Assembly (NCBI RefSeq): GCF_900110645.1
Contig: NZ_FOFB01000028.1
Span: 1-64,000 of the forward strand
Direction: 5' to 3'
From: Neolewinella agarilytica
GTDB taxonomy: Bacteria; Bacteroidota; Bacteroidia; Chitinophagales; Saprospiraceae
DNA length: 64,000 bases
Below the pieces are notes generated by a model. That model did not search any database. It saw only the letters and a program-made list of their open reading frames with translations, and had not been told where the DNA came from. This document shows, in pieces, positions 5,688-62,447 of this stretch (position 1 is the first letter of the stretch; every line of letters begins with the position of its first letter). A program made the translations under genes and the position numbers.

Positions 5688-6641
5688 ATGGACATCAGCG
5701 TCGTCGTACCCCTCTTCAACGAAGAAGAAAGTCTGCCCGAACTCACTGCCTGGATTGACCGGGTGATGCAAGCCAACAACTTCAGCTATGAAGTCTGGCT
5801 CATTGATGATGGCAGTACCGATAACAGCTGGAAAGTCATCACAGAACTGAGGGCTAAGAATGCCAACCTGAAGGCCGTCAAGTTCCAACGCAACTACGGT
5901 AAAAGCCCCGCTCTTTTCGTGGGTTTTAAACGGGTCTCCGGCGAAGTCGTCATCACGATGGACGCTGATCTGCAGGATAGCCCGGACGAGATACCCGAGC
6001 TCTACCGCATGATAAAAGAAGATGGTTTTGACCTGGTTTCCGGTTGGAAACAAAAACGGCATGACCCCATTGGCAAAACCCTGCCGTCCAAGTTTTTCAA
6101 CGCCGTTACCCGTAAGGTGAGCGGTATTCATTTGCACGACTTTAACTGCGGGCTGAAATCTTACCGGCTTAACGTTGTCAAGTCCATCGAAGTCTACGGA
6201 GATATGCACCGTCACATGCCACTACTGGCTAAATGGGCCGGTTTCAAAAACATCGGAGAGAAGGTCGTTGAGCACCACGCCCGGAAGTATGGATACTCTA
6301 AATTTGGCCTTTCCCGGCTGATCACCGGCTTCCTCGACCTGATGTCACTCATGTTCGTAGGTAAGTTTGGCAAACGCCCCATGCACCTCTTCGGCACGCT
6401 GGGTACCATCGTTTTCCTCGTCGGTTTTTTCAGCATTCTGTACATCGGTGGCACCAAGTTGTACGCCCTGGCCAATCACATGCCCAAACAATTGGTGACG
6501 GAGAACCCCTGGTTCTACATCAGCCTGACCAGCATGGTGCTTGGCACCATTCTCTTTAACACCGGCTTTCTGGCCGAACTGGTGGCCAGATCAAGTGCCG
6601 ACCGGAATAGTTATTTGATTGAGACGGTGCTGGAGGGGTAG
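5688..6641 (+). CDS. Membrane-anchored family 2 glycosyltransferase (GtrB/DPM1-like)
   Basis: A 317-residue polyprenyl-phosphate glycosyltransferase type. The N-terminal GT-A domain shows VVPLFNEEESLPEL, the LIDDGSTDNSW nucleotide-binding motif, and TMDADLQDSPDEIPEL, which contains the DxD-like metal site. Two C-terminal transmembrane helices (about residues 235-260 and 278-303) anchor it in the inner membrane. Such enzymes transfer a sugar from a nucleotide donor to undecaprenyl phosphate for lipid- or surface-glycan modification. A -7-like TAACTTCG is at 5675-5682. Degenerate heptamer repeats begin a few bases after the stop codon. Confidence 0.9.
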   Translation: MDISVVVPLFNEEESLPELTAWIDRVMQANNFSYEVWLIDDGSTDNSWKVITELRAKNANLKAVKFQRNYGKSPALFVGFKRVSGEVVITMDADLQDSPDEIPELYRMIKEDGFDLVSGWKQKRHDPIGKTLPSKFFNAVTRKVSGIHLHDFNCGLKSYRLNVVKSIEVYGDMHRHMPLLAKWAGFKNIGEKVVEHHARKYGYSKFGLSRLITGFLDLMSLMFVGKFGKRPMHLFGTLGTIVFLVGFFSILYIGGTKLYALANHMPKQLVTENPWFYISLTSMVLGTILFNTGFLAELVARSSADRNSYLIETVLEG

Positions 6642-6645
6642 TTTC

Positions 6646-6835
6646 AGGTTGCAGATTGCAGGTTGCAAGTTGCAAGTTGCAAGTTGCAGGTTGCAAGTTG
6701 CAGGTTGCAGGTTGTGGAGTTGGAACCTTTCCCCTGTTACCTGTGACTTGTAACCTGCAACTAGTAACTTGCAACCTGTAACTAGTAACTTGCAACCTGT
6801 AACCTCCCACCCTGCAACCTGCCCCCCCTGTAACC
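6646..6835. repeat. Degenerate 7-bp-period repeat array, two opposed halves
   Basis: From 6646 to about 6722, heptamers of the form AGGTTGC/AAGTTGC follow one another. From about 6734 to 6835 the complementary forms (TGTAACC, TGCAACT, AGTAACT) run on with the same 7-bp period. Because the halves are mutually complementary, the transcript could fold into a long imperfect hairpin between the GT2 and tadA genes. No protein is plausible here. Confidence 0.8.
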
Positions 6836-6845
6836 TCCTCCCCCC

Positions 6846-9246: not shown

Positions 9247-9281
9247 AGATTCTCGATTCTCGATTGGCGATTGTCGATTTA
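9247..9281. repeat. Degenerate heptamer repeat (CGATTNN)
   Basis: Five consecutive 7-base units immediately after the rlmN stop: agattct, cgattct, cgattgg, cgattgt, cgattta. The period is the same as in the arrays at 6.6, 16.2 and 50.8 kb, although the core differs. Confidence 0.65.
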
Positions 9282-15736: not shown

Positions 15737-16191
15737 CGCACGCCACCGCTAAGGCCTTACTGGAAAAGTACTTCGTTGGAGAAACATCTCTGCCAGAAGA
15801 AGCTTTGCTGCGCGGCTACTTCCGCGCCGGAAATATCCACCCGGATATCCGGGAGTATAAGGACCTCTTCGCTTACTGGGATGATGCCGCAAAGATCAAA
15901 GCGCCCGCCCGCCGGCGCAGCTTACCCCTTCGTTGGCTCAGTACTGCGGCAGCAGCCGTACTACTGCTCTTCGCGGTTAATCTTTGGGTCGCACCAAATC
16001 CGGAGCCGGAACTCTCCGAGCTGGTCATGACGGAAACGAAGACCGTCGATTGGTCCAAATACGAAATCACCGACGAGAAGGAAGCTTACAAGGTCCTTCG
16101 CGCTGCGCTGAAAACCGCCTCTACCAGCATGAACAGTAGTACGAAGGGGGTGATTGAGGAAGTGAGTGAGGCGGCGGCGATGATACGGTAG
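15733..16191 (+). CDS. Putative anti-sigma factor, single-pass membrane protein
   Basis: 152 residues. The cytoplasmic N terminus (ALLEKYFVGETSLPEEALLRGYF) looks like the short helical sigma-binding segment of Bacteroidota anti-sigma proteins. One transmembrane helix lies at about 72-87 (STAAAAVLLLFAVNLWV), then a periplasmic tail of ~65 residues. Its ATG overlaps the sigma factor stop, so translation is probably coupled. I infer that it holds the sigma factor at the membrane. No enzymatic motif. Confidence 0.72.
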   Translation: MTHATAKALLEKYFVGETSLPEEALLRGYFRAGNIHPDIREYKDLFAYWDDAAKIKAPARRRSLPLRWLSTAAAAVLLLFAVNLWVAPNPEPELSELVMTETKTVDWSKYEITDEKEAYKVLRAALKTASTSMNSSTKGVIEEVSEAAAMIR

Positions 16192-16193
16192 GC

Positions 16194-16235
16194 AGGTTGC
16201 AGGTTGCAGGTTGCAAGTTGCGGGTTGCAGGTTGC
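16194..16235. repeat. Six heptamer repeats (AGGTTGC type)
   Basis: Six consecutive 7-mers: aggttgc three times, aagttgc, gggttgc, aggttgc. They begin 3 bases after the anti-sigma stop and share their unit with the array at 6646-6722. Confidence 0.85.
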
Positions 16236-45204: not shown

Positions 45205-46302
45205 ATGAAGAAAATTTTGTCTTTTGCGGGGCTATTGATTATGGGTGGAATGATTGGCTACCTGGGCGCTAAATTCTTCCTGTCCGGCAGTGATACTGAA
45301 ACGGCCAGCCTACTCCCGGGCAATAGTAAAGTTTACCTAATCCTCCTTCTCCCCCTCATGTATCTCTTAGTGGTAGGCATCCATGAGCTCGGGCACGTAG
45401 TGGCAGGAAAAACCCAGAACTTTGATTTTTTCGGTCTTACCGTCGGGCCTTTCTCCTGGAAGCCCAAAGACAGCGGTGGCATTCGCTTTGCCTGGAATAA
45501 ATCACTCAATCTGGCCGGAGGTGTAGCGATGATGTTGCCCAACGGAGACCACCGCCTGCGCCAGCGTTTCATGTGGTTTGCGGCAGGTGGGCCATTGGCA
45601 TCGCTACTCCTGCTCGGCTTTTGTTTCCTGATTGGCAACCTTCTGCCGGAGGGGACCTTCGTCCGCTTTTTACTTTTCGCCCTCGGGGCCTTCTCCGGCG
45701 CGATCTTCATAGCAACCATACTCCCCTTCCGGGCGGGTGGTTTTGCCAGCGATGGGCTGCGGATCATAAACTTTGCCCGCAACGGCCCCACTGCTGCTGC
45801 GGATCTTGCTGGCTTGCAAGCCATGACGCACCTGCGATCGGGCCGTCCGCACGAAGATCTTCCTGCCGATAGTTTTGCCACCGTAGCCGCTGACACCTCC
45901 ATCCCCGCCCAACAACGGGTTACGATGGATTACTACCGTTATCTGCACGCCCTGGGAGTTAACAATATTCCGCAGGCCGCAGCACTTTTGGAAAGCGTAA
46001 TGGGAAGGCTCGACGAATATCCTCCCGGCTCCCACGGGGGCTTTTATCTCGAGCAAGCCATTTTTGAGGCCCAGTATCGTAAAGATTTAGCCGCCGCAGA
46101 AGCCGCTTTAGCTCAGTACGAAGACAGCCCTTTCACTGAATCTCTCAGCCTGCCACTCACGCGGGCCACCATCGCTAACCTGCGCGGTGACCGCGCCGCC
46201 GTCCTGGCCGAAATCCCCGCCATCGAAGCCGCCCTGCCTAAAAGCATGGACCAGAGCCGCGTGCCCATTATTCGTCAGTGGGTGGCGGATTGGAAGGCCT
46301 GA
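45205..46302 (+). CDS. M50-type zinc metalloprotease-like membrane protein
   Basis: 365 residues. Two N-terminal hydrophobic helices (ILSFAGLLIMGGMIGYLGAKFF; VYLILLLPLMYLLVVGI) are followed by the zinc motif HELGH (residues 60-64) inside the membrane region, and two further hydrophobic stretches around 120-180. The C-terminal ~150 residues are a soluble, TPR-like helical tail. This matches an M50 site-2-protease-like fold, probably inner-membrane, with unknown substrate. The second M50 motif (LDG) is not obvious. Confidence 0.78.
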   Translation: MKKILSFAGLLIMGGMIGYLGAKFFLSGSDTETASLLPGNSKVYLILLLPLMYLLVVGIHELGHVVAGKTQNFDFFGLTVGPFSWKPKDSGGIRFAWNKSLNLAGGVAMMLPNGDHRLRQRFMWFAAGGPLASLLLLGFCFLIGNLLPEGTFVRFLLFALGAFSGAIFIATILPFRAGGFASDGLRIINFARNGPTAAADLAGLQAMTHLRSGRPHEDLPADSFATVAADTSIPAQQRVTMDYYRYLHALGVNNIPQAAALLESVMGRLDEYPPGSHGGFYLEQAIFEAQYRKDLAAAEAALAQYEDSPFTESLSLPLTRATIANLRGDRAAVLAEIPAIEAALPKSMDQSRVPIIRQWVADWKA

Positions 46303-46403
46303 ATAAAAATGTCCGGTCTCCTGTCATCATCCGACCATTTGAGGCTTACCTATTGACTTTTTCCCCATTCGTGCGTTTAAATTAGTAGCAACTAATAGCA
46401 TCC

Positions 46404-46619
46404 ATGCGTAAAATTCAGGAATTCAAAACCAACATTAATTGCGGCAGCTGTGTCCGCAGCGTCACGCCTTTTCTCGACGACCTGGAAGGCGTCACCATCT
46501 GGCGGGTAGACGTTGAGCAAGAAGACAAAGTACTTACCGTAGAAGGTAACGTACCCGCTTCCGCCATCATCAAGATGGTAGAAGAAGCTGGCTTTGATAT
46601 CGAGCCAGTGGCGGCGTAA
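46404..46619 (+). CDS. Heavy-metal-associated (HMA) domain protein
   Basis: 71 residues forming one HMA ferredoxin-like domain. The metal site reads NCGSC (Cys13 and Cys16; usual form is CxxC), and VTIWRVDVEQEDKVLTVEGNVPASAIIKMVEEAGFDIEPV completes the fold. It is a copper-chaperone-like protein of the CopZ type, cytoplasmic. No ATPase or regulator partner is adjacent. Its stop codon touches the first copy of an 88-bp direct repeat. Confidence 0.85.
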   Translation: MRKIQEFKTNINCGSCVRSVTPFLDDLEGVTIWRVDVEQEDKVLTVEGNVPASAIIKMVEEAGFDIEPVAA

Positions 46620-46706
46620 CGCCCTGTAGCGACAGCTTCAGCCGTCGTTCGGGCAAGGGAGCGCCAGCGACTTTGCCCGCGCAACAACTGCCAAGACAGG
46701 AAGCTA
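46619..46706. repeat. 88-bp direct repeat, first copy
   Basis: Near-identical to 46741-46828, with only a few substitutions. It begins at the HMA gene stop codon and contains gcttcagccgtcgttcggg and gcgccagcgac. Non-coding. Confidence 0.8.
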
Positions 46707-46971
46707 TCCGAACCATTGGCGGCTTAGGCACTTGGTCGAGACGCCCTGTAGCGACGGCTTCAGCCGTCGTTCGGGCAAGGGAGCGCCAGCGACTTTGACC
46801 GTGCAACAACTGCCAAGACAGGAAGCTACCCCGCTAAAACGCTCCGGGAGCCTTTACATTTGCTTCGCAGTACTTCGTGCTCGGCAGGCTTAGTAAACAC
46901 GGCCCCGTTCGCGATCGACGTACAGCGTCTCGACCAGAATTTCGGCCAAACCAATAGGCTTTAACAAAACC
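46620..46971. other. Intergenic region with two direct repeats
   Basis: Occupied mainly by the two 88-bp repeats. From 46829 to 46971 I see no gene or structured RNA; it may hold the promoter of the PLP enzyme. Confidence 0.5.
46741..46828. repeat. 88-bp direct repeat, second copy
   Basis: Second copy, offset 122 bases from the first, with only a few substitutions between the two copies. Confidence 0.8.
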
Positions 46972-47901
46972 ATGCCCTTCCCCCCTCCTGCTAAAAGCCC
47001 GCTTCAGCCCTTACACCTGTCTGCCGCCAAGGCACGAGACATTGCCCTTTTCTGCAAGCGCGACGATCTTTACACCCCTGCCCCGGGTACCGCCCTGCAG
47101 GGCAACAAAGTGCGCAAGCTGGAACCGGTATTGCGGGCGGCCGTGGCCGCAAAGCCTACGCCTTTGCTGGTCAGCTTCGGTGGTGCGTACAGCAATCATG
47201 TTTCTGCGCTGGCTACGGCCGGGCGACTTTACAGCATCCCCGTCCATCTCTTCGTGCGCGGGGAAGAAGTGGACAATGCTTTGCTGGATCAGGCACGGCG
47301 GGACGGGGCGATCATAACGCTGCTAAGCCGGTCCGAATACCGCTTCAAAAACGAGGCAAGCTGGCTACGATTACGCCAGGCCGAACTGGCTGAACAACAT
47401 CGCCTGCCCCCGGAATTCATCTGGTTTATTCCCGAAGGTGGTACGACCAAAGAAAGTGCCCGCAACGTAGGCAAACTGTATGGCGAAGTGGTCTCCGATC
47501 TCGGCCAGCCACCCGATTTTCTGTGCATTAGTGCCGGCACCGGTGGGTCTGCCGCTGGCATCATCCAGGCCGCTGATCCCAAGACCCGCATTGAGGTTTA
47601 TCCCGCTCTGAAGGGAGATTGGATGGCGGATGAGATTCAGCAATTACTTGGACCAGGAGTCTCCCAAAACTGGACATGCATAACGGATTATCACTTTGGC
47701 GGCTACGGCAAATTCCCCTGGGAGTGGGTCGTCCCGTCGGAGGGAATCGCAAGCCGGGCGGACATCGGGGAGCCGGGGCTTCCACAGCTGGAGCCGATCT
47801 ATACGGCGAAGCTTTTTTCTGGTGTATTGGACCGGCTCAGAGCGGGTAAATATCCGGAGGGCAGCAGTGTTGTTGTCGTGCATACCGGGGGGATTTATTG
47901 A
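46972..47901 (+). CDS. PLP-dependent enzyme, ACC deaminase / D-cysteine desulfhydrase family
   Basis: A 309-residue fold-type II PLP enzyme. ALQGNKVRKLEPVL holds the Schiff-base lysine in the family's NKxRK context, SFGGAYSNHVSALATAG is the cofactor and substrate loop, and CISAGTGGSAAGIIQA binds the PLP phosphate. It would deaminate 1-aminocyclopropane-1-carboxylate or desulfurate D-cysteine; sequence alone does not decide, and the short length suits the D-cysteine type. Monocistronic. Confidence 0.87.
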   Translation: MPFPPPAKSPLQPLHLSAAKARDIALFCKRDDLYTPAPGTALQGNKVRKLEPVLRAAVAAKPTPLLVSFGGAYSNHVSALATAGRLYSIPVHLFVRGEEVDNALLDQARRDGAIITLLSRSEYRFKNEASWLRLRQAELAEQHRLPPEFIWFIPEGGTTKESARNVGKLYGEVVSDLGQPPDFLCISAGTGGSAAGIIQAADPKTRIEVYPALKGDWMADEIQQLLGPGVSQNWTCITDYHFGGYGKFPWEWVVPSEGIASRADIGEPGLPQLEPIYTAKLFSGVLDRLRAGKYPEGSSVVVVHTGGIY

Positions 47902-48070
47902 GTTTCTTTAAGGGGCGGCGCAGACCAAACCGTCGCTTTTATTCGCCTTTGGGGGGCCAAAAGAAGCAACAACCTAGTTTGCGCGCCCTTTCAATCTTTA
48001 AGAACTACTCAAAAAATACGCTAAGAAAATTTGGATTCCTTAGGGCAATAATTATCGCCTAAAAATTATA

Positions 48071-48742
48071 TCAACTACCCTGCCACCGTTTAAAAGTAAC
48101 GGGATAACGAGTCTCCGGTTGAATTTCTATAGGCATTGGAGTACTTCCATTTGTACTACAGAGATTCAGAAAAATTTCTCCTTTTATAGTATTACGATCT
48201 ACAAATCGGCCAACAAACGTTTTCCCTCGACAATGCCATTCTCCAGCACGAAAGGAATATTGATTGTTACTCTTATCAAAAAGATCGTAAATCCAAACTG
48301 AGTCCACGGGTGTTGTAAAATCACCGGGAAATACATAGGTAATCACACTTTGGCTGCTTCCAATTGACAAGGCGTCTGGATCCCGATTATACATTTTACC
48401 AGCCCCGTCTTTGAGCCTAGGATCTCCATTTTGCCAAGTCAGGTCAAATGGCTCCTCCAAAAGAGACATAATAAGTGTATCCATCAAGCCGGGATACTGA
48501 TCATAGCTAATGAAGTTTATTGCCTCACTGTTTTGAATGCAAAAACCAGGGGCCAATTGCGCTTCCTGATTCGGACATTCGCAATATCCGTTTTGGCATT
48601 CAGCGACACCTTTACATACGTTGTAACATTCTTCTCCTCTTGGGGTAATAATGTCTTCATCGCAGCCATCGCAACCAATTAGCATCAGGCAAGGCAAGAG
48701 GGATAACAGTACTGTCTGTATTCTTGATTTTAATAAAATCAT
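48071..48742 (-). CDS. Lipoprotein with cysteine-rich EGF-like head
   Basis: 223 residues; lipobox LMLIGC with Cys24. The mature N terminus is cysteine-rich (GCDEDI...EECYNVCKGVAECQNGYCECPNQ), like an EGF-type module, followed by a beta-rich domain (ITYVFPGDFTTPVDSVWIYDLFDKSNNQYSFRAGEWHCRGKTFVGRFVDRNTIKGEIFLNLC). Its ATG overlaps the stop of the preceding T9SS gene by 4 bases, so the two are co-translated and probably act together at the cell surface. AT-rich. Function unknown. Confidence 0.75.
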   Translation of the reverse strand: MILLKSRIQTVLLSLLPCLMLIGCDGCDEDIITPRGEECYNVCKGVAECQNGYCECPNQEAQLAPGFCIQNSEAINFISYDQYPGLMDTLIMSLLEEPFDLTWQNGDPRLKDGAGKMYNRDPDALSIGSSQSVITYVFPGDFTTPVDSVWIYDLFDKSNNQYSFRAGEWHCRGKTFVGRFVDRNTIKGEIFLNLCSTNGSTPMPIEIQPETRYPVTFKRWQGS

Positions 48743-50865
48743 TGGAGTATGATTTTTTTAGCGTAACGACGACCATCAGACAATGTTGCTGACAGAAAAT
48801 ATATTCCAGCCGGCAGGTTGCCTGAATCTATTACGATTGAATTCCCCATTGATATCTCCTGTCTCATAAACTCCTGACCATTGATATTATAGAGCGATAC
48901 CCGAGCCATTTGAGAGGAGCTATTTTCCATTTGCCGAAAAGCTACATTCGTACTCTCAAAGCTTGTTTCTGTAATAAAGACATCATCAAAATCGTCCGTT
49001 CTCGGAGGAACAACGTTAATACTTACGGGGGTGGGACAAGTAAAACCATTGTAAGTAAAACCGTGTCCTGTCTCACTCCATACATTTCTTAGCCATCCAT
49101 TAAGATTAAAGAAAGCTCTGGTAGCATTCTGATAGTTTGACTCGCTTGCACTCCCAGGTATATCATCGGCCATAGTTGATAACAGCCAGGAAGCAACATA
49201 AGGTGAGCAACAATCATTATTCGGGTCTGGGCTTCCTCCTCCTTGCATTATCCCTGCTAACCTAAAAGAAGAGTATATACTCGCATTAGTTTCCCATTTA
49301 CGTAGTCCACTAGCTTCTAGTACTCCGGCCGCGCCAAGAACCACTCTAACCGGCGTATTGGGCCTGATCGTCACATTATGATTCCGATTCGCGCCTGTCT
49401 GTTGAAGGGACCTTCTTTGACCGGATACTTCAATAGAACAAGGTGTTTTATCTAACCAGGGGTCCTCTAATGCATTTCCGACCTGAGCAATAGCATCGCT
49501 GATTAAGCTGTTTTGCCAGATGTTTTGGATTTGTTCTTCCGATTGGCCTGGTGTTCCTGTACCCGCTGGTGGATCTTGGGTAAATTGATAGACAGTAAAG
49601 GCAAATTCAAGAAATTCTGATGCCGTTGGCCCATTGTAAGTCTGGGAACATTCCGATGCTTGTCCATTCGTTTGCATGGAGAGTATCTCAAATGATTCGG
49701 CATTGCCTACTTCCGTAAATGTTACCATCATTGCGTCAACTGCTGAGGCTCTGGCATTTCGATTACTTCCGCAAAAAAGTCCTCCACTAATCACTTCTGC
49801 ATTAGCTCTCACGACAGATTCATAATCCCATTCAAAGGCCACCTCGCGATCACAGCCACAATCCGAGGGAAGGCCGTTAGAACCGGTACACACCCATAGA
49901 AACTCAAGTGTTGCTGTAAAATCAACGGGAAGCACATCACTATTCCCTTGCTGAACAGCATCTCGGTTCCAATAGAACTCATAGGGCGCATTTACACACC
50001 GCAAGGTATTTACGAACATTTCTTGGTAACGTGAAGGTCCCTCGTATGCCCAATATTGATCTGCTCTGATATCTCCTCCACGAAATCTTTGGTCAAGTCT
50101 AGAACCATAGTCTCCGGAGATTCTACCATCAGACCGTACACGGACATAAGGCTCTAAGTCATAGTTCATAGCCACTCTAACTGATGCGCATTGGCAGTCA
50201 TCTGTTAGGGACTTGGCCCCGATAAATACTGATTCCGACGGATAAAAATTTAGGTCTTCATACTTATCTTGAATCGGTTTCCCACCATATCTAAGTTGTT
50301 GTAGTAACCTAATCTTGGAGAACTCATCAATATCATTAGACTTATCTAAGAAGGAGTTGATGTCTGTTCCACTCTTTTGCCATTCAAGGACAACATTATA
50401 ATCATCCCGATTCAAATCTATTGGATCATTCTGTTCTTTTGGGGTAGTGGAAAAAGAGGTGACTTCCTCTTCTGTACCGCACGAATTTTTAGCTAAAACT
50501 GTAAAAAAACGGTCATTAGGAATCTTGACAACTGTTACTGGTTCGATAAGCGTTAATGACATATTTTTACCGCCATCAGCTCTCTCTAAAAGGACATCCC
50601 CTCCCGTTTCGGAGGTAGTTATTTGAACCAGAGAGAATGAATAGAATCGAATTACTTTACATTCAACATTTACGGAAAGTTCACAGCCCTCAGAGTATTT
50701 GTCTGCTATCATCTTGGCCTGGACATTCCTGGCAGCGTCAATTCTAGCAGCATATTCTTTATCAAATTGGACAGCATCTACATTTTGTGCAGTCAAAGCT
50801 TGGCAACAGAGCACAAGAATTAATATCGCTAACGGATAGCGAGTAACGAGTAACGAGTAACGCAT
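48739..50865 (-). CDS. Large secreted protein with T9SS sorting domain, heptamer repeats at the start
   Basis: 708 residues; signal peptide LAILILVLCCQALTAQ. Many cysteines (about 20) are spread along the mature chain, which is otherwise of no family I recognise. The last ~70 residues (ARVSLYNINGQEFMRQEISMGNSIVIDSGNLPAGIYFLSATLSDGRRYAKKIIL) are a T9SS type A sorting domain. The first codons are written by CGTTACT heptamers (three exact, then degenerate), and eight AAACCC units precede the ATG. AT-rich compared with neighbours and overlapping the EGF-like lipoprotein gene, so the pair forms an operon. Confidence 0.82.
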   Translation of the reverse strand: MRYSLLVTRYPLAILILVLCCQALTAQNVDAVQFDKEYAARIDAARNVQAKMIADKYSEGCELSVNVECKVIRFYSFSLVQITTSETGGDVLLERADGGKNMSLTLIEPVTVVKIPNDRFFTVLAKNSCGTEEEVTSFSTTPKEQNDPIDLNRDDYNVVLEWQKSGTDINSFLDKSNDIDEFSKIRLLQQLRYGGKPIQDKYEDLNFYPSESVFIGAKSLTDDCQCASVRVAMNYDLEPYVRVRSDGRISGDYGSRLDQRFRGGDIRADQYWAYEGPSRYQEMFVNTLRCVNAPYEFYWNRDAVQQGNSDVLPVDFTATLEFLWVCTGSNGLPSDCGCDREVAFEWDYESVVRANAEVISGGLFCGSNRNARASAVDAMMVTFTEVGNAESFEILSMQTNGQASECSQTYNGPTASEFLEFAFTVYQFTQDPPAGTGTPGQSEEQIQNIWQNSLISDAIAQVGNALEDPWLDKTPCSIEVSGQRRSLQQTGANRNHNVTIRPNTPVRVVLGAAGVLEASGLRKWETNASIYSSFRLAGIMQGGGSPDPNNDCCSPYVASWLLSTMADDIPGSASESNYQNATRAFFNLNGWLRNVWSETGHGFTYNGFTCPTPVSINVVPPRTDDFDDVFITETSFESTNVAFRQMENSSSQMARVSLYNINGQEFMRQEISMGNSIVIDSGNLPAGIYFLSATLSDGRRYAKKIILQ

Positions 50866-50914
50866 TGGGTTTGGGTTTGGGTTTGGGTTTGGGTTTGGGT
50901 TTGGGTTTGGGTTT
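50838..50914 (-). repeat. Heptamer and hexamer simple repeats at a start codon
   Basis: On the minus strand, eight AAACCC units (50914-50866) run into the ATG (50863-50865), which is followed by CGTTACT three times and then decaying copies CGCTATC and CGTTAGC. The hexamers are in the leader and the heptamers are coding. See the finding on phase variation. Confidence 0.9.
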
Positions 50915-51276
50915 ACTGGCGAAAACCAGTCTTAATGTTAGTACGATATAAATATACTATCATCTATAACAAAAATGCAAGAATCAATAATAAATAATTA
51001 CTAAAAACCCATGATACATTCTATTATAGCCAATATTTGACCAAAAATTCTATTCTAACGCTCCAAAAGTGAAAATTTAGAAAACATCAAAAAAATAAAA
51101 GTTAGACACAATTATGTATTAAAATCGTGACAGTTTCAACCTGAATCAGGTAGCATCAGAATAGATCCTCCCATTTACAACAGGTCTGCAAACAGTTGAA
51201 AATTCACAAAACTCACAAAACCAAAAAACCCTATCTTTAGCACCCACATTCCAACCTCATAAAAAACCTGCGCCCC
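50866..51276. other. AT-rich intergenic region
   Basis: After the hexamer run, 50940-51230 is markedly AT-rich with no supported gene. It holds the leader and promoter of the minus-strand T9SS gene and, at its right end, the promoter of the plus-strand oxidoreductase operon. Confidence 0.55.
51232..51239 (+). promoter_or_regulatory. -7-like element TATCTTTA upstream of the molybdoenzyme genes
   Basis: Seven of eight positions fit TAnnTTTG; 38 bases before the ATG of the 2Fe-2S subunit gene. Confidence 0.5.
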
Positions 51277-51744
51277 ATGGCTCAATTCCAACTCACCGTT
51301 AACGGCAAATCAAGGACGGTAGACGCTGCCCCCGACACCCCTCTACTCTGGGCATTACGCGATGATCTCGGTCTCGTTGGCACCAAGTTCGGCTGCGGCA
51401 TCGGGCAATGTGGCGCCTGCACGGTACACATTGACGGGGTAGCGATGCGCTCCTGCCAGATGCCCGTCAGCCAGGTCGCCGAAGGCGGCAACAAGGTCAC
51501 CACCATCGAAGGACTCTCAGAAAACGGCACTCACCCCGTACAACAAGCCTGGCTGGAGCACGACGTGCCCCAGTGTGGCTACTGCCAGGCGGGGCAGATC
51601 ATGAGCGCTGCTTCCCTGCTGGAGCTCACGCCCAATCCTACGGATGAAGACATCACCGCCGGTATGTCGGGCAACATTTGCCGTTGCGGCACCTACCTCC
51701 GCATTCATGCAGCGGTTAAAACGGCCGCCGGAAAGCTGAGTTAG
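51277..51744 (+). CDS. iorA: 2Fe-2S subunit of isoquinoline 1-oxidoreductase-type molybdoenzyme
   Basis: 155 residues with two iron-sulfur clusters: the plant-ferredoxin-type motif [16 protein letters not shown] plus a following Cys (MRSCQMP), and the four-helix cluster motif QCGYCQAGQ...[16 protein letters not shown]. It relays electrons from the molybdopterin subunit. No signal peptide, which is usual, since it is carried out by the Tat signal of its partner. The catalytic subunit gene follows 123 bases later. Confidence 0.92.
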
Positions 51745-51866
51745 CGCGTGCGTCTTCGGTTCGCTCCGGCGGTGACCATACCTCCCGGCACAAGAGCCTG
51801 ACACTCCCCTACCTTGCTTTTCCAACTTCCTTTGCACCGGCGTTCAGCGCCCCAATCCTTACTCCA

Positions 51867-54062
51867 ATGTCTACCAATAAATCCCGTAGAAATTTCCTGA
51901 AAGTCTCCGCCGCCACCGGCGGTGGTTTTATGCTGGGCTTCAGCATCCTTACCTCCTGCGAACCCAAACCAGTAGTGGCCATGGAGCCCGAGCTGGTGAT
52001 GCCCGAAAAATGGATGGAGCTCAACGGCTTCATCAAAATTGGCGATAACGGCGTGGTAACCATCATGAGTCCTAACCCGGAAATTGGTCAGAACGTAAAA
52101 ACGGCCATGCCGATGATCATCGCCGAAGAGCTCGACGTTGACTGGAAAAACGTGGTTGTGGAGCAGGGCAAACTGGACACCGAAAACTTTGAGCGACAGA
52201 TTGCCGGCGGCAGCCAATCCATCCGCCACGGCTGGGAGCCACTGCGCAACACGGGCGCTACGGCCCGCGCCATGCTCGTCTCCGCCGCCGCCGAAAAACT
52301 AGAGGTTCCCGCCGGAGAACTCCGCACCGAAAACGGTGTCATTCACCACGATGCCTCCGGCAAAAGTATCGGGTACGGCGAAGTGGCCTCCCTGGCCGCC
52401 ACGATGGAAGTACCCACCGAGGTCGAATTAAAGGACCCTAAAGATTTCAAAATTATCGGCCACGGCAAAAAGAACGTCGACGCCAAAAAAATAGCTACCG
52501 GAAAGCCTCTTTTCGGTATCGACGTACAGCGCGAAGGCATGCTCTACGCCGGCATCATTCACCCGCCGGCTTTCGGTCTGGAGTTAAAATCTTTTGACGC
52601 CGCCGCTGCGCTGGCCATGCCCGGCATTACGGACGTTTTCTCCATCGACTGTGCCCCCGAGGGCAAAGAAATGCAATGGTCCGACGGTGCCACGGTACGC
52701 AAACAGGTGGCCGTAGTGGGCAAATCCACCTGGCAGGTGATGCAGGCCAAAAAAGCCGTCACCGTAGAATGGGCCAAAGCCAGTGACGCAGAAGACACGG
52801 CCGGCCACAAAGCCAAAATGGCCGACCTGATCGCTAACGGCAAAGCCGAAGAAGCCCGCCGTGATGGCGATCCGGAAGCCGCCTTCGCCAGCGCCGCCAA
52901 GATCGTTGAGGCCTCCTACTCTGCTCCCTTCCTGCCCCACAACACCATGGAGCCGATGAATTTCTTCGCTCACGTGACGGACGAGAAGGCTGAACTACAC
53001 GGCCCGGTACAAACACCGGAGTTTTTGGAAAAATCCATCGCTACGCTCTTCGATATGGACCCCGCGCAGATCGAAGTGGGCATGACCCGCATGGGCGGCG
53101 GCTTCGGCCGCCGGCTCTACGGTAGTTTCGCCGTGGAAGCAGCGCTCATCAGCAAGCAGGCGGGCGCTCCCGTCAAACTCGTCTACACCCGCGAAGACGA
53201 CATGACCCAGGGCACTTACCGCCCCGACTACCTCGTGAAGTACCGCGCCGGCCTCGACGCCGACGGCAAGCTCATCGCTTTCCACGTGCGCGGCACGGGC
53301 ACCCATGGCAGCCCCATCTTTGCTAACCGATTCCCCGCCGGAACGGTAGACAACTACCTGGCTGAGAACATCAGCATGGACTCCAACATCTCCACCGGTG
53401 CCTGGCGGGCACCGCGCTCCAACTTCATCGCGGGTGCCGAACAGGCCTTCCTCGACGAAGTAGCCGAAGCCGCCGGCAAAGACCCCATCGACTTCCGCCT
53501 CGAACTCTTCGACCGGGCCATCAAGGACCCCGTCGGGGAAAAGAACGACTACGACGCCGAGCGCTACGCTGGCGTGTTGAAGCTCGTTCGCAAAGAATCC
53601 GGCTGGGACGGCGACGCGGGCGAAGCCCGCGGTGTAGCCGCCTATTACTGCCATAACTCCTACGTTGCCCAGGTGCTACACCTGGAACTCGACGACAATG
53701 GCAACCCGAAAGTGGATAAAGTTGACTGCGCCGTAGACTGCGGTATCGTCGTTAACCCCGAAGGTGCCCGCAACCAGATCGAAGGTGGCATCGTCGATGG
53801 CATCGGCCACGCCCTCTACGGACAAATGACCTTTACCGACGGTAAACCCGATCACCAGAATTTTGACAGCTACCGCCTCATTCGGCACGCCGAAGCACCC
53901 CGCGAGATCAATACCTACTTCGTTGACAATGGCATCAAGCCCACCGGACTCGGCGAACCTTCCCTGCCGCCCATCATGGGTGCACTGGCGAACGCGATCT
54001 ACGCCGCCAAGGGAGAACGGGTGTATGATCAGCCGTTTATGGGAGCGGCTTTACGTGGCTGA
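51867..54062 (+). CDS. iorB: Molybdopterin-binding subunit of isoquinoline 1-oxidoreductase type
   Basis: 731 residues. KSRRNFLKVSAATGGGFMLGF is a twin-arginine signal, and a Cys after it (SILTSC) might even lipidate. The xanthine-oxidase-family molybdenum domain shows MTRMGGGFGRRLYGSF, the GAWRAPRSNF substrate channel motif, and GLGEPSLPPIMGALANAIYAA with the catalytic Glu. Two tandem half-domains account for the single long chain. It oxidises aldehydes or N-heterocycles in the periplasm; the substrate cannot be told. No cytochrome subunit gene follows. Confidence 0.92.
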   Translation: MSTNKSRRNFLKVSAATGGGFMLGFSILTSCEPKPVVAMEPELVMPEKWMELNGFIKIGDNGVVTIMSPNPEIGQNVKTAMPMIIAEELDVDWKNVVVEQGKLDTENFERQIAGGSQSIRHGWEPLRNTGATARAMLVSAAAEKLEVPAGELRTENGVIHHDASGKSIGYGEVASLAATMEVPTEVELKDPKDFKIIGHGKKNVDAKKIATGKPLFGIDVQREGMLYAGIIHPPAFGLELKSFDAAAALAMPGITDVFSIDCAPEGKEMQWSDGATVRKQVAVVGKSTWQVMQAKKAVTVEWAKASDAEDTAGHKAKMADLIANGKAEEARRDGDPEAAFASAAKIVEASYSAPFLPHNTMEPMNFFAHVTDEKAELHGPVQTPEFLEKSIATLFDMDPAQIEVGMTRMGGGFGRRLYGSFAVEAALISKQAGAPVKLVYTREDDMTQGTYRPDYLVKYRAGLDADGKLIAFHVRGTGTHGSPIFANRFPAGTVDNYLAENISMDSNISTGAWRAPRSNFIAGAEQAFLDEVAEAAGKDPIDFRLELFDRAIKDPVGEKNDYDAERYAGVLKLVRKESGWDGDAGEARGVAAYYCHNSYVAQVLHLELDDNGNPKVDKVDCAVDCGIVVNPEGARNQIEGGIVDGIGHALYGQMTFTDGKPDHQNFDSYRLIRHAEAPREINTYFVDNGIKPTGLGEPSLPPIMGALANAIYAAKGERVYDQPFMGAALRG

Positions 54063-54120
54063 TCGTGACCCGCTTCGTGCGTTCGGACTAGTCTCCAAGC
54101 CCAGGCGTTCGGTATCTAAG

Positions 54121-54273
54121 GTGATTAATAGATAGCACCGGGACGCTCTCAGGTCCCGCAATACTGCGGGACGCTAAGAGGCCCCTTGAGTCGGGTACCA
54201 GGACCTTGTAGCGTCGCGAAGCGTCCTGCAAGCGTCCGAGTGAGATGTGTATGTACCTTAATCTTTTAATCAC
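54121..54273. repeat. MITE-like element with GTGATTAA ends
   Basis: The terminal inverted repeats are gtgattaa (54121-54128) and ttaatcac (54266-54273), extending imperfectly to ~14 bases. Inside are the 8-bp hairpin GTCCCGCA-ATAC-TGCGGGAC (54153-54172) and a second one around agcgtcgcgaagcgt. Shares a 23-mer and one terminus with the copy at 7311. Confidence 0.7.
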
Positions 54274-54297
54274 TATAGCTCGTAACTTGCGATCTAA

Positions 54298-55794
54298 TCA
54301 AAGCCCGTAAGTAATCCCAATACTGCCGCCCAGCAAAACAGCCCGCTGACGGAGCCCCGTTACGGAGGATTCCCCGAAGCGATAGTAGTGAACATCCGCT
54401 TGCAGAAGGAGCCTGGTACGGCTGTTAGGCCTCGGGCTGAACATCAGGGAAGGTCGCAGCCGGTAGGACAGAAAGAAATCGGAAGTATCTCCAGAGGAGG
54501 AGTCATAGGTAATGACTTCGTCCGGTGCAGCCAGCGTTCGCCCGCTGGCCTGTAATTGGTAATTCAGGCCTACGCCTGCTCCCAGGCCTGCAGTGTAGCG
54601 CCCAAAGGTCTGGCGGTATTCCAATAAAACCGGGAGAGATAAAAATTGCTGGTAATTGTTGTGTGCAATCCGGCGGATGGACGTGGCCGCCGTAGTCCGG
54701 TAGGGAAAAGAAGGATGAGCCGCTACCGTATCCCGCTCAATGGTGTAGCGAAAAGTATTGTGCGTCCGCCAATACTCCAGTCCCGTATTAAGCCTGAATT
54801 TATTGGAGAGCCGGTATGAAAGTTCCAGCGAAACAGACTGGCCGAAGGTGTTGCCAACGGCAGCATTAAGAGCGTTTGCAGCATTTCCTTCGGATGGGTT
54901 CAGGTATTTCCGGAGCATCAGGCTAGTACCTGCTGAAGCGCTGAACTCCAGCTTAGCCGCACCGGCCGTTCGGAAGGTCTCCGGTGAGGGCGGGGAAAAT
55001 GATACTTCAGGAAAGGCGGGGAGGTTTTCGTCGAGACTTAGCGGTTCAATGGCAAGGGAAGGAAGTGACACTCTGGCAGACAAGGCTGCAGTAGCATCGA
55101 CTTCTTTTTCAACGCCAGCTTGCGCCGTGTTGGAAAATCCGGAAGGTGACGTACGCCCTTCCGCAGAAGCCGTGGATTGGCTGGCGGGCAGGTCGGTAAG
55201 CTGCAGTAAGGTGAGTCGCTCCGCTTCATTTTCGATCGATCGTGTCGCGCTTGCCGTCGTTCCGGCAGCAGCGTTTCGCTCCACTCTGGTACGACCAGTG
55301 GTCGCTCCCGAAGGAGAAGTGGACTCCACTTTGGTTTCGTTGGATGCGGATGCGTTTTGGGGGGCGGGACCCGCAGGTGCAGAGGGATGTTTCCCGGAGG
55401 AAGCAGAGGGAGTAGCGGGCTGCGAACCAGTCTTCACAGATTCCATTTCGGAAGCAACCATCGCCTCCTGCGCACTTCCCGTAGCCAGCTTGGGCAGCTC
55501 CGCCGGAAGGTTCGGCTCACTACTCGCCACAACGGAGTCTCTTTCTGTTGCCAAGTCCGCCAGAGCGCGTTCTTGCTGACCTCCAAAGGGCCATAGCAGC
55601 AGCCCGGCCAGAATAAGCCCGCCAAGCAGCAGGCTAAGGACCACACCCCGGAACGGAGAACCAGCAACGGGTTCCTCCTCATTCTCTGGCGGTAGTCCGG
55701 CCTCGATGTCCGCCCAAAGGTCATCCGCATCGATCTCCTCAGTGGAGGTCGCTTCGCGGAAGTGCCGTCGGATGTAATCTTCAAATAGTTTCAT
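54298..55794 (-). CDS. Anti-sigma-like membrane protein fused to a beta-barrel-like domain
   Basis: 498 residues in four parts: a cytoplasmic N terminus (1-49, MKLFEDYIRRHFREATSTEEIDADDLWADIE), one transmembrane helix (50-69), a long Ser/Thr/Ala/Pro-rich linker (70-~275), and a C-terminal domain (~281-498) with alternating strands and aromatic ends (SVSLELSYRLSNKFRLNTGLEYWR, YTAGLGAGVGLNYQLQ, GGSIGITYGL) of the outer-membrane beta-barrel type. The gene follows the ECF sigma gene on the same strand. By neighbourhood I infer an anti-sigma factor that spans the envelope. No catalytic motif. Confidence 0.72.
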   Translation of the reverse strand: MKLFEDYIRRHFREATSTEEIDADDLWADIEAGLPPENEEEPVAGSPFRGVVLSLLLGGLILAGLLLWPFGGQQERALADLATERDSVVASSEPNLPAELPKLATGSAQEAMVASEMESVKTGSQPATPSASSGKHPSAPAGPAPQNASASNETKVESTSPSGATTGRTRVERNAAAGTTASATRSIENEAERLTLLQLTDLPASQSTASAEGRTSPSGFSNTAQAGVEKEVDATAALSARVSLPSLAIEPLSLDENLPAFPEVSFSPPSPETFRTAGAAKLEFSASAGTSLMLRKYLNPSEGNAANALNAAVGNTFGQSVSLELSYRLSNKFRLNTGLEYWRTHNTFRYTIERDTVAAHPSFPYRTTAATSIRRIAHNNYQQFLSLPVLLEYRQTFGRYTAGLGAGVGLNYQLQASGRTLAAPDEVITYDSSSGDTSDFFLSYRLRPSLMFSPRPNSRTRLLLQADVHYYRFGESSVTGLRQRAVLLGGSIGITYGL

Positions 55795-55852
55795 ACTGAT
55801 ATTCGGGTAAATCTGTATCGTATAGTTGTACTAAGATTGGTGAGTAAAATGC

Positions 55853-56488
55853 TTACACATCCGGTAAGCCATAAACGAAGGCCTGCACCAACATGAAGGC
55901 TTGAATGCTCATCATCTCCCGCCGGAATCGTGGGTCATCCCGCAGGGGAGACTTCGGGTCGCGCACCATCTCCTGTTTCAACCAGGCTCTTGCCCGCGAA
56001 AGTCGTTTGCGGGAAAGGGCAGCGTCAATATTCAGCATCTCCGCGATTTCAGGATGCGAAAATCCATCAATTACGTTCAGGCTGAAAACGGCGTAATAGG
56101 CTTCGGGCATTCGCTTTAGCCAGATGATCAAATCATCAGTAGACAGCTTCTCTATCACCTCCGGTGAGGTACACTGTTGGCTTCTTTCCGCGATGAGTTC
56201 TTCCGTAGCATTCTTTTGTCCGTTTGAATTTCTCTTCAGACAGTTATTGATCAGCACGCGGGTGGCCCATGTTTTGAATCCCGCCCGCGACGGATCATAC
56301 TGCTCCAGCTTATGAAAAATGTTCAGGTAGCTGTCCTGCAGGGTGTCTTTCAGATCTTCCGGATTACGGAGGTAGCGTTTGGCGATGATGGTAAAGTAGG
56401 GGACCGTCAGTTCATAGAGCCGCCGTTGCGCCACCCGTTGGTTGGCGATGCAGTCGGCAATCAGTCGCTGATCAATTCCCTGGTTCAT
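55853..56488 (-). CDS. ECF-type RNA polymerase sigma factor
   Basis: 211 residues. Region 2: YLRNPEDLKDTLQDSYLNIFHKLEQYDPSRAGFKTWATRVLINNCLKR; region 4: YYAVFSLNVIDGFSHPEIAEMLNIDAALSRKRLSRARAWLKQEM, with a helix-turn-helix. An in-frame TTG precedes the ATG at 56488. The downstream gene (54298) encodes its probable membrane partner, 58 bases away. Confidence 0.88.
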   Translation of the reverse strand: MNQGIDQRLIADCIANQRVAQRRLYELTVPYFTIIAKRYLRNPEDLKDTLQDSYLNIFHKLEQYDPSRAGFKTWATRVLINNCLKRNSNGQKNATEELIAERSQQCTSPEVIEKLSTDDLIIWLKRMPEAYYAVFSLNVIDGFSHPEIAEMLNIDAALSRKRLSRARAWLKQEMVRDPKSPLRDDPRFRREMMSIQAFMLVQAFVYGLPDV

Positions 56489-56905
56489 CAATTTAGTTCT
56501 TTAAATAAGGCGGGCCGACTAGTCGGCAAGTCTACCCGCCCTGATCGCGGGCGAACCGCTTACCTCCTCAGGTAGTAAGGTAAGCTTCAAAGTGGTGCTA
56601 CCGCTAATGTTTTTAGTTATAGTGTGGATAACAATTTGCACAAGCACCCCTCGACTACCATTTCACTGCGCGGCTGGCTTCGCCGGTCCACTCCCTTCGG
56701 TCGGTCGATGTACGCTCGGGGTCCGGGCCTGTGGGGTAAAGACCGTCGACAAACTTCGCTTGAGGCGAAGTTTGTCGACGGCCTAACATTAACTCGCCGG
56801 TCACCGGGCAAAGCCCGACCTCGGTCTCTGAGCGTAGTCGAATGGGTGTGGAGGGCGTAGTCGAGGGGCTTTTTTCTGCCCGTTTGTGCAATTTGTTAGC
56901 CACAC
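56489..56905. other. Intergenic region occupied by a MITE-like element
   Basis: No gene supported. About 130 bases of leader for the sigma gene, then the element 56622-56905, which reaches the stop codon of the neighbouring gene. Confidence 0.6.
56622..56905. mobile_element. MITE-like element with 22-bp terminal inverted repeats
   Basis: 56622-56643 (core gtgtggataacaatttgcac) and 56884-56905 are inverted copies with 2 mismatches in 22. A second inner pair, cccctcgactac / gtagtcgagggg, follows at both ends. In the middle is a perfect 17-bp stem (ccgtcgacaaacttcgc, 56743-56759) with a 5-base loop. No transposase is encoded, so a non-autonomous element is the best reading. The right end abuts the stop codon of the Cys-repeat gene. 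Confidence 0.68.
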
Positions 56906-57889
56906 TTAATTACACCTGCAATCCCGGCCAATCGATCCGGGAATACTGTCTGCCGTAATACAGGCATCTCCGATGTTGAGCTGCAGGTCGGGGCAATCGA
57001 ACATGCTGTTGCTTTCACAGCCACAGTCTTGGGTGACAATTCCTGCTCCTCCCGCAGGGGTGCGGCAGGCATCCCCGACGTTGGCCTCTAATTCCGGACA
57101 GTCAAAAGCTCCTGAGCCATCTCCAATACATTCACAGCGTTCATTTACTATGCCTAAGTTACCATTACTAAGCGTACAGGTATCCCTGACATTCAGTTGG
57201 AGGTCGGGGCAATCAAAAGTATTCCCTCCTCCCAAACACTCACAGTCTCCGGAAAGGATGCCAAAAGAGCCATCGGCCAGCATGCAGGAATCGCGAAAAT
57301 TCAGCATCAATTCAGGGCAGTCATAAGTAGTGGTTACTGCTTCACAGTTACAGTTCTCGTCAATAAAACCTTCCCCTCCGCCTGGCACCCGGCAGGCATC
57401 GTTATAGTTCGCCTGTAGCTCCGGGCAGTCGAAGGTATTCCCGTTTCCTAAGCACTCGCAATCCTCGCTGGCAATGCCGAAGTCACCGTTGTCAAGTCTG
57501 CAGGTATCCCCAATATTGGTTTCTAAGCGAGGGCAGTCAAAATCCGTGGAAGAACCGCCGAGACACACACAGTCTCCGGAAAGAATACCAAGGGTGCCGT
57601 CCGCATTCATACAAGTATCCCGGAAGTTGAGCTCCCATTCAGGGCAGTCAAAAATATTCCCCAGCGTATCGCCCCGGCATTCACAGTCTTCGGTCACTAC
57701 GCCAAAAAACGTCTGCGGAGCGCCAAGGATGGTCAGCTCACAGCTGTCCCCGAAATTGAGTTGTATCTCCGGGCAATCCAGAATGGGGTTGAGTTCAAAT
57801 TCATCCGTTTCAAAAATCCCACAGGAAGAAAAAATGGCGGAAGCGGCCAGGAAAAAGATCATGCCGTAGGATAAAATACGAAATTGCAT
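56906..57889 (-). CDS. Lipoprotein with eight cysteine-rich ~36-residue repeats
   Basis: 327 residues from the ATG at 57889. Lipobox SAIFSSC, then eight tandem repeats of the plan FDCPELQLNxxDxCxxxxGxxGIxxxDCxCxG, each with four cysteines (about 32 in all). Repeats differ in sequence but keep cysteine spacing, so they are old duplications. The spacing suggests two disulfides per repeat, as in EGF-like chains, or a metal-binding array. No enzyme motif. Surface-exposed extension or adhesin is a fair guess, not shown. It follows the sigma factor gene across a MITE-like element. Confidence 0.75.
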   Translation of the reverse strand: MQFRILSYGMIFFLAASAIFSSCGIFETDEFELNPILDCPEIQLNFGDSCELTILGAPQTFFGVVTEDCECRGDTLGNIFDCPEWELNFRDTCMNADGTLGILSGDCVCLGGSSTDFDCPRLETNIGDTCRLDNGDFGIASEDCECLGNGNTFDCPELQANYNDACRVPGGGEGFIDENCNCEAVTTTYDCPELMLNFRDSCMLADGSFGILSGDCECLGGGNTFDCPDLQLNVRDTCTLSNGNLGIVNERCECIGDGSGAFDCPELEANVGDACRTPAGGAGIVTQDCGCESNSMFDCPDLQLNIGDACITADSIPGSIGRDCRCN

Positions 57890-58107
57890 AAAGCGAAGTT
57901 TCTTTGGTTTGCAAAATGAATACAGCCCGTTCAGGAGCTGCTTTCGGGTACTTATATCCGCCCATTGAATAAAGTGTGACAGCAAAGCCAAAAAATATTT
58001 TTCTTTTCTTTAGTGCTTTGAGCCAATGAGTTCATCTCCGTTGATTCGCATAAACAGCGCTTCTGATTTACTCGGAATACAATTCTTCGACCGAAATAAT
58101 TGATCTC

Positions 58108-61756: not shown

Positions 61757-62447
61757 GAATGTAGTATGGTAGTTTTGTAGTAGTGTAGTGCTACCGCATG
61801 TGACAGTAATAGATTGCCATGCGACAGCCCTACATCCTAATCCCAGTCGCGCAGCGACGTGCCGGCCTCTCGCGGCAGCCACTACAATACTACATTCCTG
61901 ATCCCAGTCGCGCAGCGACGTGCCGGCCTCTCGCGGCAGACACTACAGTACTACATTCCTGATCCCAGTCGCGCAGCGACGTGCCGGCCTCTCGCGGCAG
62001 CCACTACAATACTACATCCTAATCCCAGTCGCGCAGCGACGTGCCGGCCTCTCGCGGCAGACACTACAGTACTACATTCCTGATCCCAGTCGCGCAGCGA
62101 CGTGCCGGCCTCTCGCGGCAGCCACTACAATACTACATTCCTGATCCCAGTCGCGCAGCGACGTGCCGGCCTCTCGCGGCAGCCACTACAATACTACATC
62201 CTAATCCCAGTCGCGCAGCGACGTGCCGGCCTCTCGCGGCAGCCACTACAATACTACCGCCTACAATACTACACTCCCCCCACCCCTCCCAATATTATTT
62301 GTCGTCAAAGGCCAAAGGCTTCATAAAAAGGCTAGAGAATTTTCTTCTGCGATACTTTTATCGCCGCGCAAACGTATATTGAGTACACGATTGCCACTAC
62401 GTCAAGCCCACCACCACTCTTTTTTCGATTTTAGCCCCAATTTGACG
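61757..62447. other. Long intergenic region filled by a tandem array
   Basis: Contains degenerate 'gtagt' repeats (61760-61795), the seven-copy array (61821-62260), and about 180 bases of leader for the transglutaminase-like gene. No gene is supported: the open frames are the array read in different frames, because its period is not a multiple of three. Confidence 0.65.
61821..62260. repeat. Seven tandem 60/61-bp repeats
   Basis: The core gtgccggcctctcgcggcag starts at 61859, 61920, 61981, 62041, 62102, 62163 and 62223. Units are 61 or 60 bases and come in three types by the end sequence (cactacaatactacattcctgatccc, the same with a cagacactacagt start, and the shorter tcctaatccc). Each unit carries gtcgcgcagcgac, a 5-bp stem with a 3-base loop. 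Non-coding. Confidence 0.92.

Follow-up and report, generated by a model that had tools for sequence, protein, structure and literature searches.

The question raised by this locus is whether short tandem repeats at the start of a gene for a secreted protein form a phase-variation switch, or whether they belong to a wider class of repeats that happened to enter the gene. The window, by which we mean the whole 64,000-nucleotide stretch of Neolewinella agarilytica contig NZ_FOFB01000028.1 analysed here, carries a 708-codon gene on the minus strand with its ATG at 50865-50863. A perfect array of 8.3 AAACCC units (50914-50865, minus strand, 50 bp) makes up the untranslated leader, its last base being the A of the ATG, and a perfect array of 3.3 CGTTACT units (50840-50862, minus strand) forms codons 2-9 and would encode the n-region of the signal peptide. 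Two decayed heptamer units, CGCTATC and CGTTAGC, which are also coding, are seen in the sequence at 50826-50839 (minus strand), and both are taken in, together with the preceding T, by a 6-bp hairpin. The first-pass annotation, which described eight AAACCC units directly before the ATG and three CGTTACT units after it followed by degenerate coding copies, was thus accurate on the anatomy. A small inverted repeat, ACTGG-CGAAAA-CCAGT (50915-50930), adjoins the hexamer tract, and a motif match further upstream gave a weak candidate Bacteroidetes-type promoter (TTG, 21 nt, TATATTTA; 50949-50980, minus strand), whose pattern is not a strong one, with two matches compared with 0.75 in shuffled sequences. 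If this candidate is used, the hexamer tract would lie inside the transcribed leader. The tract forms an A/C-rich, largely unstructured leader; its G-rich strand (GGGTTT) is the template strand and gave no signal when folded as plain secondary structure (z -0.3).

The consequences of a change in unit number differ between the two repeats. Loss of one heptamer unit yields MRYSLLAIR followed by TAG at codon 10, gain of one unit leads to TGA after 36 codons, and loss or gain of two units also results in an early stop, while the frame is kept when three units are lost or gained. The frame shifts that had been worked out earlier for single units therefore hold, as does the statement that gain or loss of hexamers in the leader would leave the frame unchanged. 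The sequence (CGTTACT)n reads RYSLLVT in all frames and is free of stops; TAA occurs in its complement, so that only the CGTTACT orientation can enter a reading frame. Of the possible starts, only the ATG at 50865 would provide a signal peptide; the in-frame candidates that follow are a GTG at codon 18 and an ATG at codon 51.

The product of the gene (48739-50865, minus strand; 708 aa) is a T9SS type A secreted protein according to profile matches and homologues, and its family occurs in scattered Saprospiria. The C-terminal T9SS type A sorting domain scored above both cut-offs (TIGR04183, 30.7 bits with a cut-off of 23; PF18962, 27.7 with a cut-off of 27), which bears out the earlier prediction of a secreted T9SS protein, and by inspection the N-terminus is a plausible Sec signal peptide (MRYSLLVTRYPLAILILVLCCQALTAQ). 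A PDB search with the profile of the protein family returned T9SS tails only, with no hint of function. The downstream gene (48071-48742, minus strand) encodes a lipoprotein of 223 aa with a lipobox, LIGC, recognized by inspection, and it overlaps the T9SS gene by the four bases ATGA, as had been noted. The description of this lipoprotein as EGF-like was not upheld, the only match being a sub-threshold EB module (E 0.14).

Both genes and their repeats lie in a low-GC islet of 3.3 kb (47918-51209; 41% GC versus 57% in both flanks). In the closest relative found, G165, the two flanks (window 45358-47917 and 51210-56493) share one contig, on which some 140 bp of unrelated sequence lie between them; the right flank is 87% identical, and both genes and their repeats are absent from this orthologous site. 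A second genome, G152, has a TonB-receptor-like gene at the site of the islet. Homologues of the T9SS protein are only 17-30% identical to it, and the best of them, at about 30%, is from G152, where it is found at two contig ends (L118 and L123; contigs 72 and 133), interrupted by transposase-like sequence, so that the closest homologue is dispensable in that genome. Considering the empty site in G165, the low GC content and the broken homologue in G152, the T9SS gene is accessory and probably horizontally acquired. The best G152 homologue has no repeats at its start, a more distant G152 homologue carries a CAACCCT heptamer array in its leader, and most homologues are without repeats at their starts; judging from these comparisons, the repeats are not an inherited trait of the gene's family. 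Orthologues with the array, sought for a comparison of unit numbers, were not found, and a scan of the genome contigs with the T9SS protein gave no match.

Repeats of this kind are a genome-wide feature. In a sample of 1.24 Mb including the window (20% of the 6.2-Mb genome), perfect arrays of at least three units numbered two at period 6 and 15 at period 7, whereas a first-order Markov model of the same sample gave none, and a chance origin of the arrays was thereby ruled out. When imperfect arrays were included, the counts rose to 63 at period 7, 54 at period 8, nine at period 6 and one at period 5, and merged clusters of 7- and 8-mer arrays amounted to about 80 per Mb. The AAACCC tract is unique genome-wide and is the sole period-6 array of more than 3.0 units in the 1.24-Mb sample, so that the hexamer is the exceptional part of the locus. 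The CGTTACT triplet is unique by exact sequence, and with 3.3 units it ranks near the bottom among the 15 perfect period-7 arrays sampled; perfect arrays of 4-14 units occur elsewhere in the genome. The 14 perfect TCCGCTG units at L063 1942-2039 (own genome, contig 25), which end 15 bp upstream of the called start of an amidohydrolase-like gene, make a much better candidate for slippage than the 3.3 CGTTACT units.

The arrays tend to be situated at gene boundaries, and stop codons are favoured: a stop codon lies no more than 10 nt from the beginning of 41 of the 76 intergenic clusters, compared with 17.2 ± 2.4 expected from random placement in the same gaps. No such enrichment was found at start codons (14 versus 13.0 ± 2.0, with a crude ORF caller). 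Many gaps contain two inverted arrays; at window 6641-6845, for instance, GTTGCAG-type units follow one stop and CTTGCAACCTGTAAC-type units precede the next ATG. Inverted arms were clearly above shuffles in 21 of 75 gaps. Degenerate heptamer or octamer arrays directly after stops were seen at that site and at window 9248-9279 and 16192-16235, and elsewhere in the same genome at L058 11183-11284, L115 13867-13985, L106 10417-10535 and other places, frequently as a pair of inverted arms that take up the space before the next gene. Such post-stop arrays may act like terminators or represent a repeat class that is expanding.

Housekeeping genes are also bordered by such repeats. Arrays immediately precede the ATGs of cmk, tpiA, rsmA, purA and a gene for a TruC/RluA enzyme; in the first four the longest ORF crosses the array and the family models begin just past it, and in the last the TruC model begins after the array and the broader RluA model earlier. 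One further array, longer than the CGTTACT array, is coding: 4.3 units of GGTTGCG, read as RNPQPAT, at L106 13252-13281 (own genome, contig 26) lie in a fused E1 alpha/beta dehydrogenase, in the linker that joins E1_dh (which ends at 317) to Transket_pyr (which starts at 359). This array was absent from all 19 other congeneric species retrieved, among the congeners being Neolewinella persica, and the linker itself varies within the genus. Arrays in this lineage thus enter coding sequence at permissive places, here in a gene in which switching would be senseless. In other Saprospiria, CGTTACT- and CCCAAA-type arrays were likewise found at unrelated gene boundaries. Repeats were thus not concentrated at dispensable surface genes, given the arrays at the four housekeeping genes named and in the E1 linker.

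Three arrays other than that of the T9SS locus could be compared with orthologous G165 sites at 81-86% identity. All three kept their position; the array after the stop at 16191 has six-odd units in both genomes, and of the other two, one differs by one 7-bp unit and one has changed more. The orthologous arrays thus look like slow drift at the scale of species rather than hypervariability, three cases being few.

Considering these results, we propose that a genome-wide repeat class was probably absorbed by an accessory gene for a secreted protein, into its leader and signal-peptide n-region. The lineage carries short tandem repeats, mostly of 7 and 8 bp, at gene boundaries, and here two such arrays border and overlap the start codon of the probably horizontally acquired T9SS gene. 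The heptamer may have become coding by capture, its stop-free reading as RYSLLVT in every frame allowing it to be taken into the ORF, and the basic and hydrophobic RYSLLVT could serve as a usable n-region, which it may now simply encode. Rare slippage would either break the gene, with one or two units gained or lost, or spare it, with three. This proposal is favoured because of the density of about 80 clusters per Mb, the excess at stop codons, the arrays at housekeeping genes and the coding heptamer of the E1 linker, and because arrays resembling both repeats occur at unrelated boundaries in other Saprospiria. The empty G165 site, the 41% GC of the islet and the mostly repeat-free starts of the homologues also argue for it, as do the three orthologous arrays that kept their position and nearly kept their unit number. 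The arrays can be accounted for without invoking a dedicated phase switch. Against absorption, the perfect hexamer and the three perfect heptamers suggest fairly recent expansion or homogenization, the CAACCCT array of the distant G152 homologue might point to selection for repeats in the family, arrays are no commoner at start codons as such than expected, and a pre-capture orthologue of the T9SS gene was not found.

A less likely explanation, on which we would put perhaps a minor share of our belief, is that the repeats tune expression: a change in the number of AAACCC units would alter the length of the leader, or a quadruplex of the GGGTTT template strand, and with it the amount of protein, the frame staying intact. 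The hexamer, with 8.3 perfect units and no counterpart in the genome, is the slippage-prone part of the locus, heptamers in the leader or promoter of hmw1A tune expression (PMC8262952), and G-rich repeats acted as position-dependent regulators in reporter tests (PMC4692102). However, with the candidate promoter situated upstream of the tract, a change in unit number would leave the spacing of its elements as it is, and CCCAAA tracts like AAACCC stand near unrelated genes in other species. Given the hmw1A precedent, the perfect hexamer leader seems the likelier variable element and the better candidate for variable expression. Tuning of this kind is compatible with the absorption of a repeat class, the two not being mutually exclusive.

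The first-pass annotation had gone from the start-region repeats to a contingency locus, in which slippage of the coding heptamer would turn production of the T9SS protein on and off, and that of the lipoprotein with it by way of the ATGA overlap. Slippage switching of the T9SS gene is possible, and several observations agree with it: the frame consequences are correct, a change in heptamer number alters the frame, the product is a surface or secreted protein, the gene is accessory, and three units reach the lowest inclusion threshold for H. influenzae heptamers (PMC2651432), the 8.3 hexamers being long. However, there are only 3.3 perfect units compared with more than 10 in the varying hmw1A/hmw2A tracts, arrays of the same class accompany housekeeping genes and occur within a core enzyme, and other arrays drift slowly between species. 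The short array and the slow change of other arrays disfavour a role as a switch, and we consider this explanation improbable. The step to a contingency locus was unsupported because such arrays are frequent, lie at gene boundaries and also adjoin housekeeping genes, whose loss of expression would do harm. Start-region repeats should therefore not be called contingency loci before a survey of the genome, the class here being pervasive and present at housekeeping genes as well.

It is very unlikely that the annotated start is wrong and that the repeats are an untranslated leader, as they are at cmk, tpiA, rsmA and purA, whose longest ORFs cross an array although the protein family starts after it: there is no further ATG before codon 51, T9SS cargo needs a signal peptide, and a start at GTG18 or ATG51 would remove it. 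Short-read assemblies can collapse or expand repeats, and this assembly consists of 74 contigs, yet an artefact is the least probable explanation of all, with hardly any weight, for the repeats span no more than about 90 bp, the contig runs on both sides and the frame is open through the gene.

The repeat class resembles heptamers known from other bacteria. TAACTGA and related heptamer direct repeats occur in Beggiatoaceae, cyanobacteria and some Bacteroidetes, and are translated only in the orientation that contains no stop, at protein edges (MacGregor, 2015; PMC4679880). The present arrays are similarly genome-wide, lie mostly at gene boundaries and are coding only in the stop-free orientation. 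However, their units are varied (GTTGCAG, CGTTACT, GATTCTC and 8-mers) rather than TAACTGA, they are found at stops more than at starts, whereas TAACTGA repeats mostly lie a few nucleotides upstream of starts, and they are often paired as inverted arms. The class thus resembles MacGregor-type repeats but is not the TAACTGA family. In hmw1A and hmw2A of H. influenzae, 13-38 heptamers were present in the strains quoted, with measured variation (PMC8262952, PMC2651432); there, too, heptamers stand at the 5' end of a gene for a secreted or surface protein, but they lie in the promoter or leader and change expression, whereas the present 3.3 units are coding. Quadruplex-forming repeats of Xanthomonas and Nostoc (PMC4692102) are also G-rich tandem repeats near genes, but they are intergenic heptamers, many per genome, in contrast to the single GGGTTT hexamer tract described here from its sequence, whose G-rich strand is the template.

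A literature search on Lewinella repeats and on repeat phase variation in Flavobacterium found nothing. If unit numbers prove to vary at this locus, it would be an unusual instance of repeat-driven phase variation of T9SS cargo, of which the literature search found none; if they do not, it would be a clear case of repeat DNA turned signal peptide. We also suggest, tentatively and with somewhat less than even confidence, that 7/8-mer boundary arrays in the genus may be raw material for new protein sequence, namely n-regions and domain linkers, wherever the frame is kept. If so, one genome would show two such captures, at the T9SS locus and in the E1 linker.

Two further features of the window were observed. 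An ORF of 361 aa at 56906-57991 consists of Cys-rich repeats (DCPELxxNxGDxC... type) and matched no Pfam family. A 61-bp tandem repeat of about seven copies at 95% identity, with higher-order periods of 121 and 182 bp, lies between predicted gene ends at 61830-62257.
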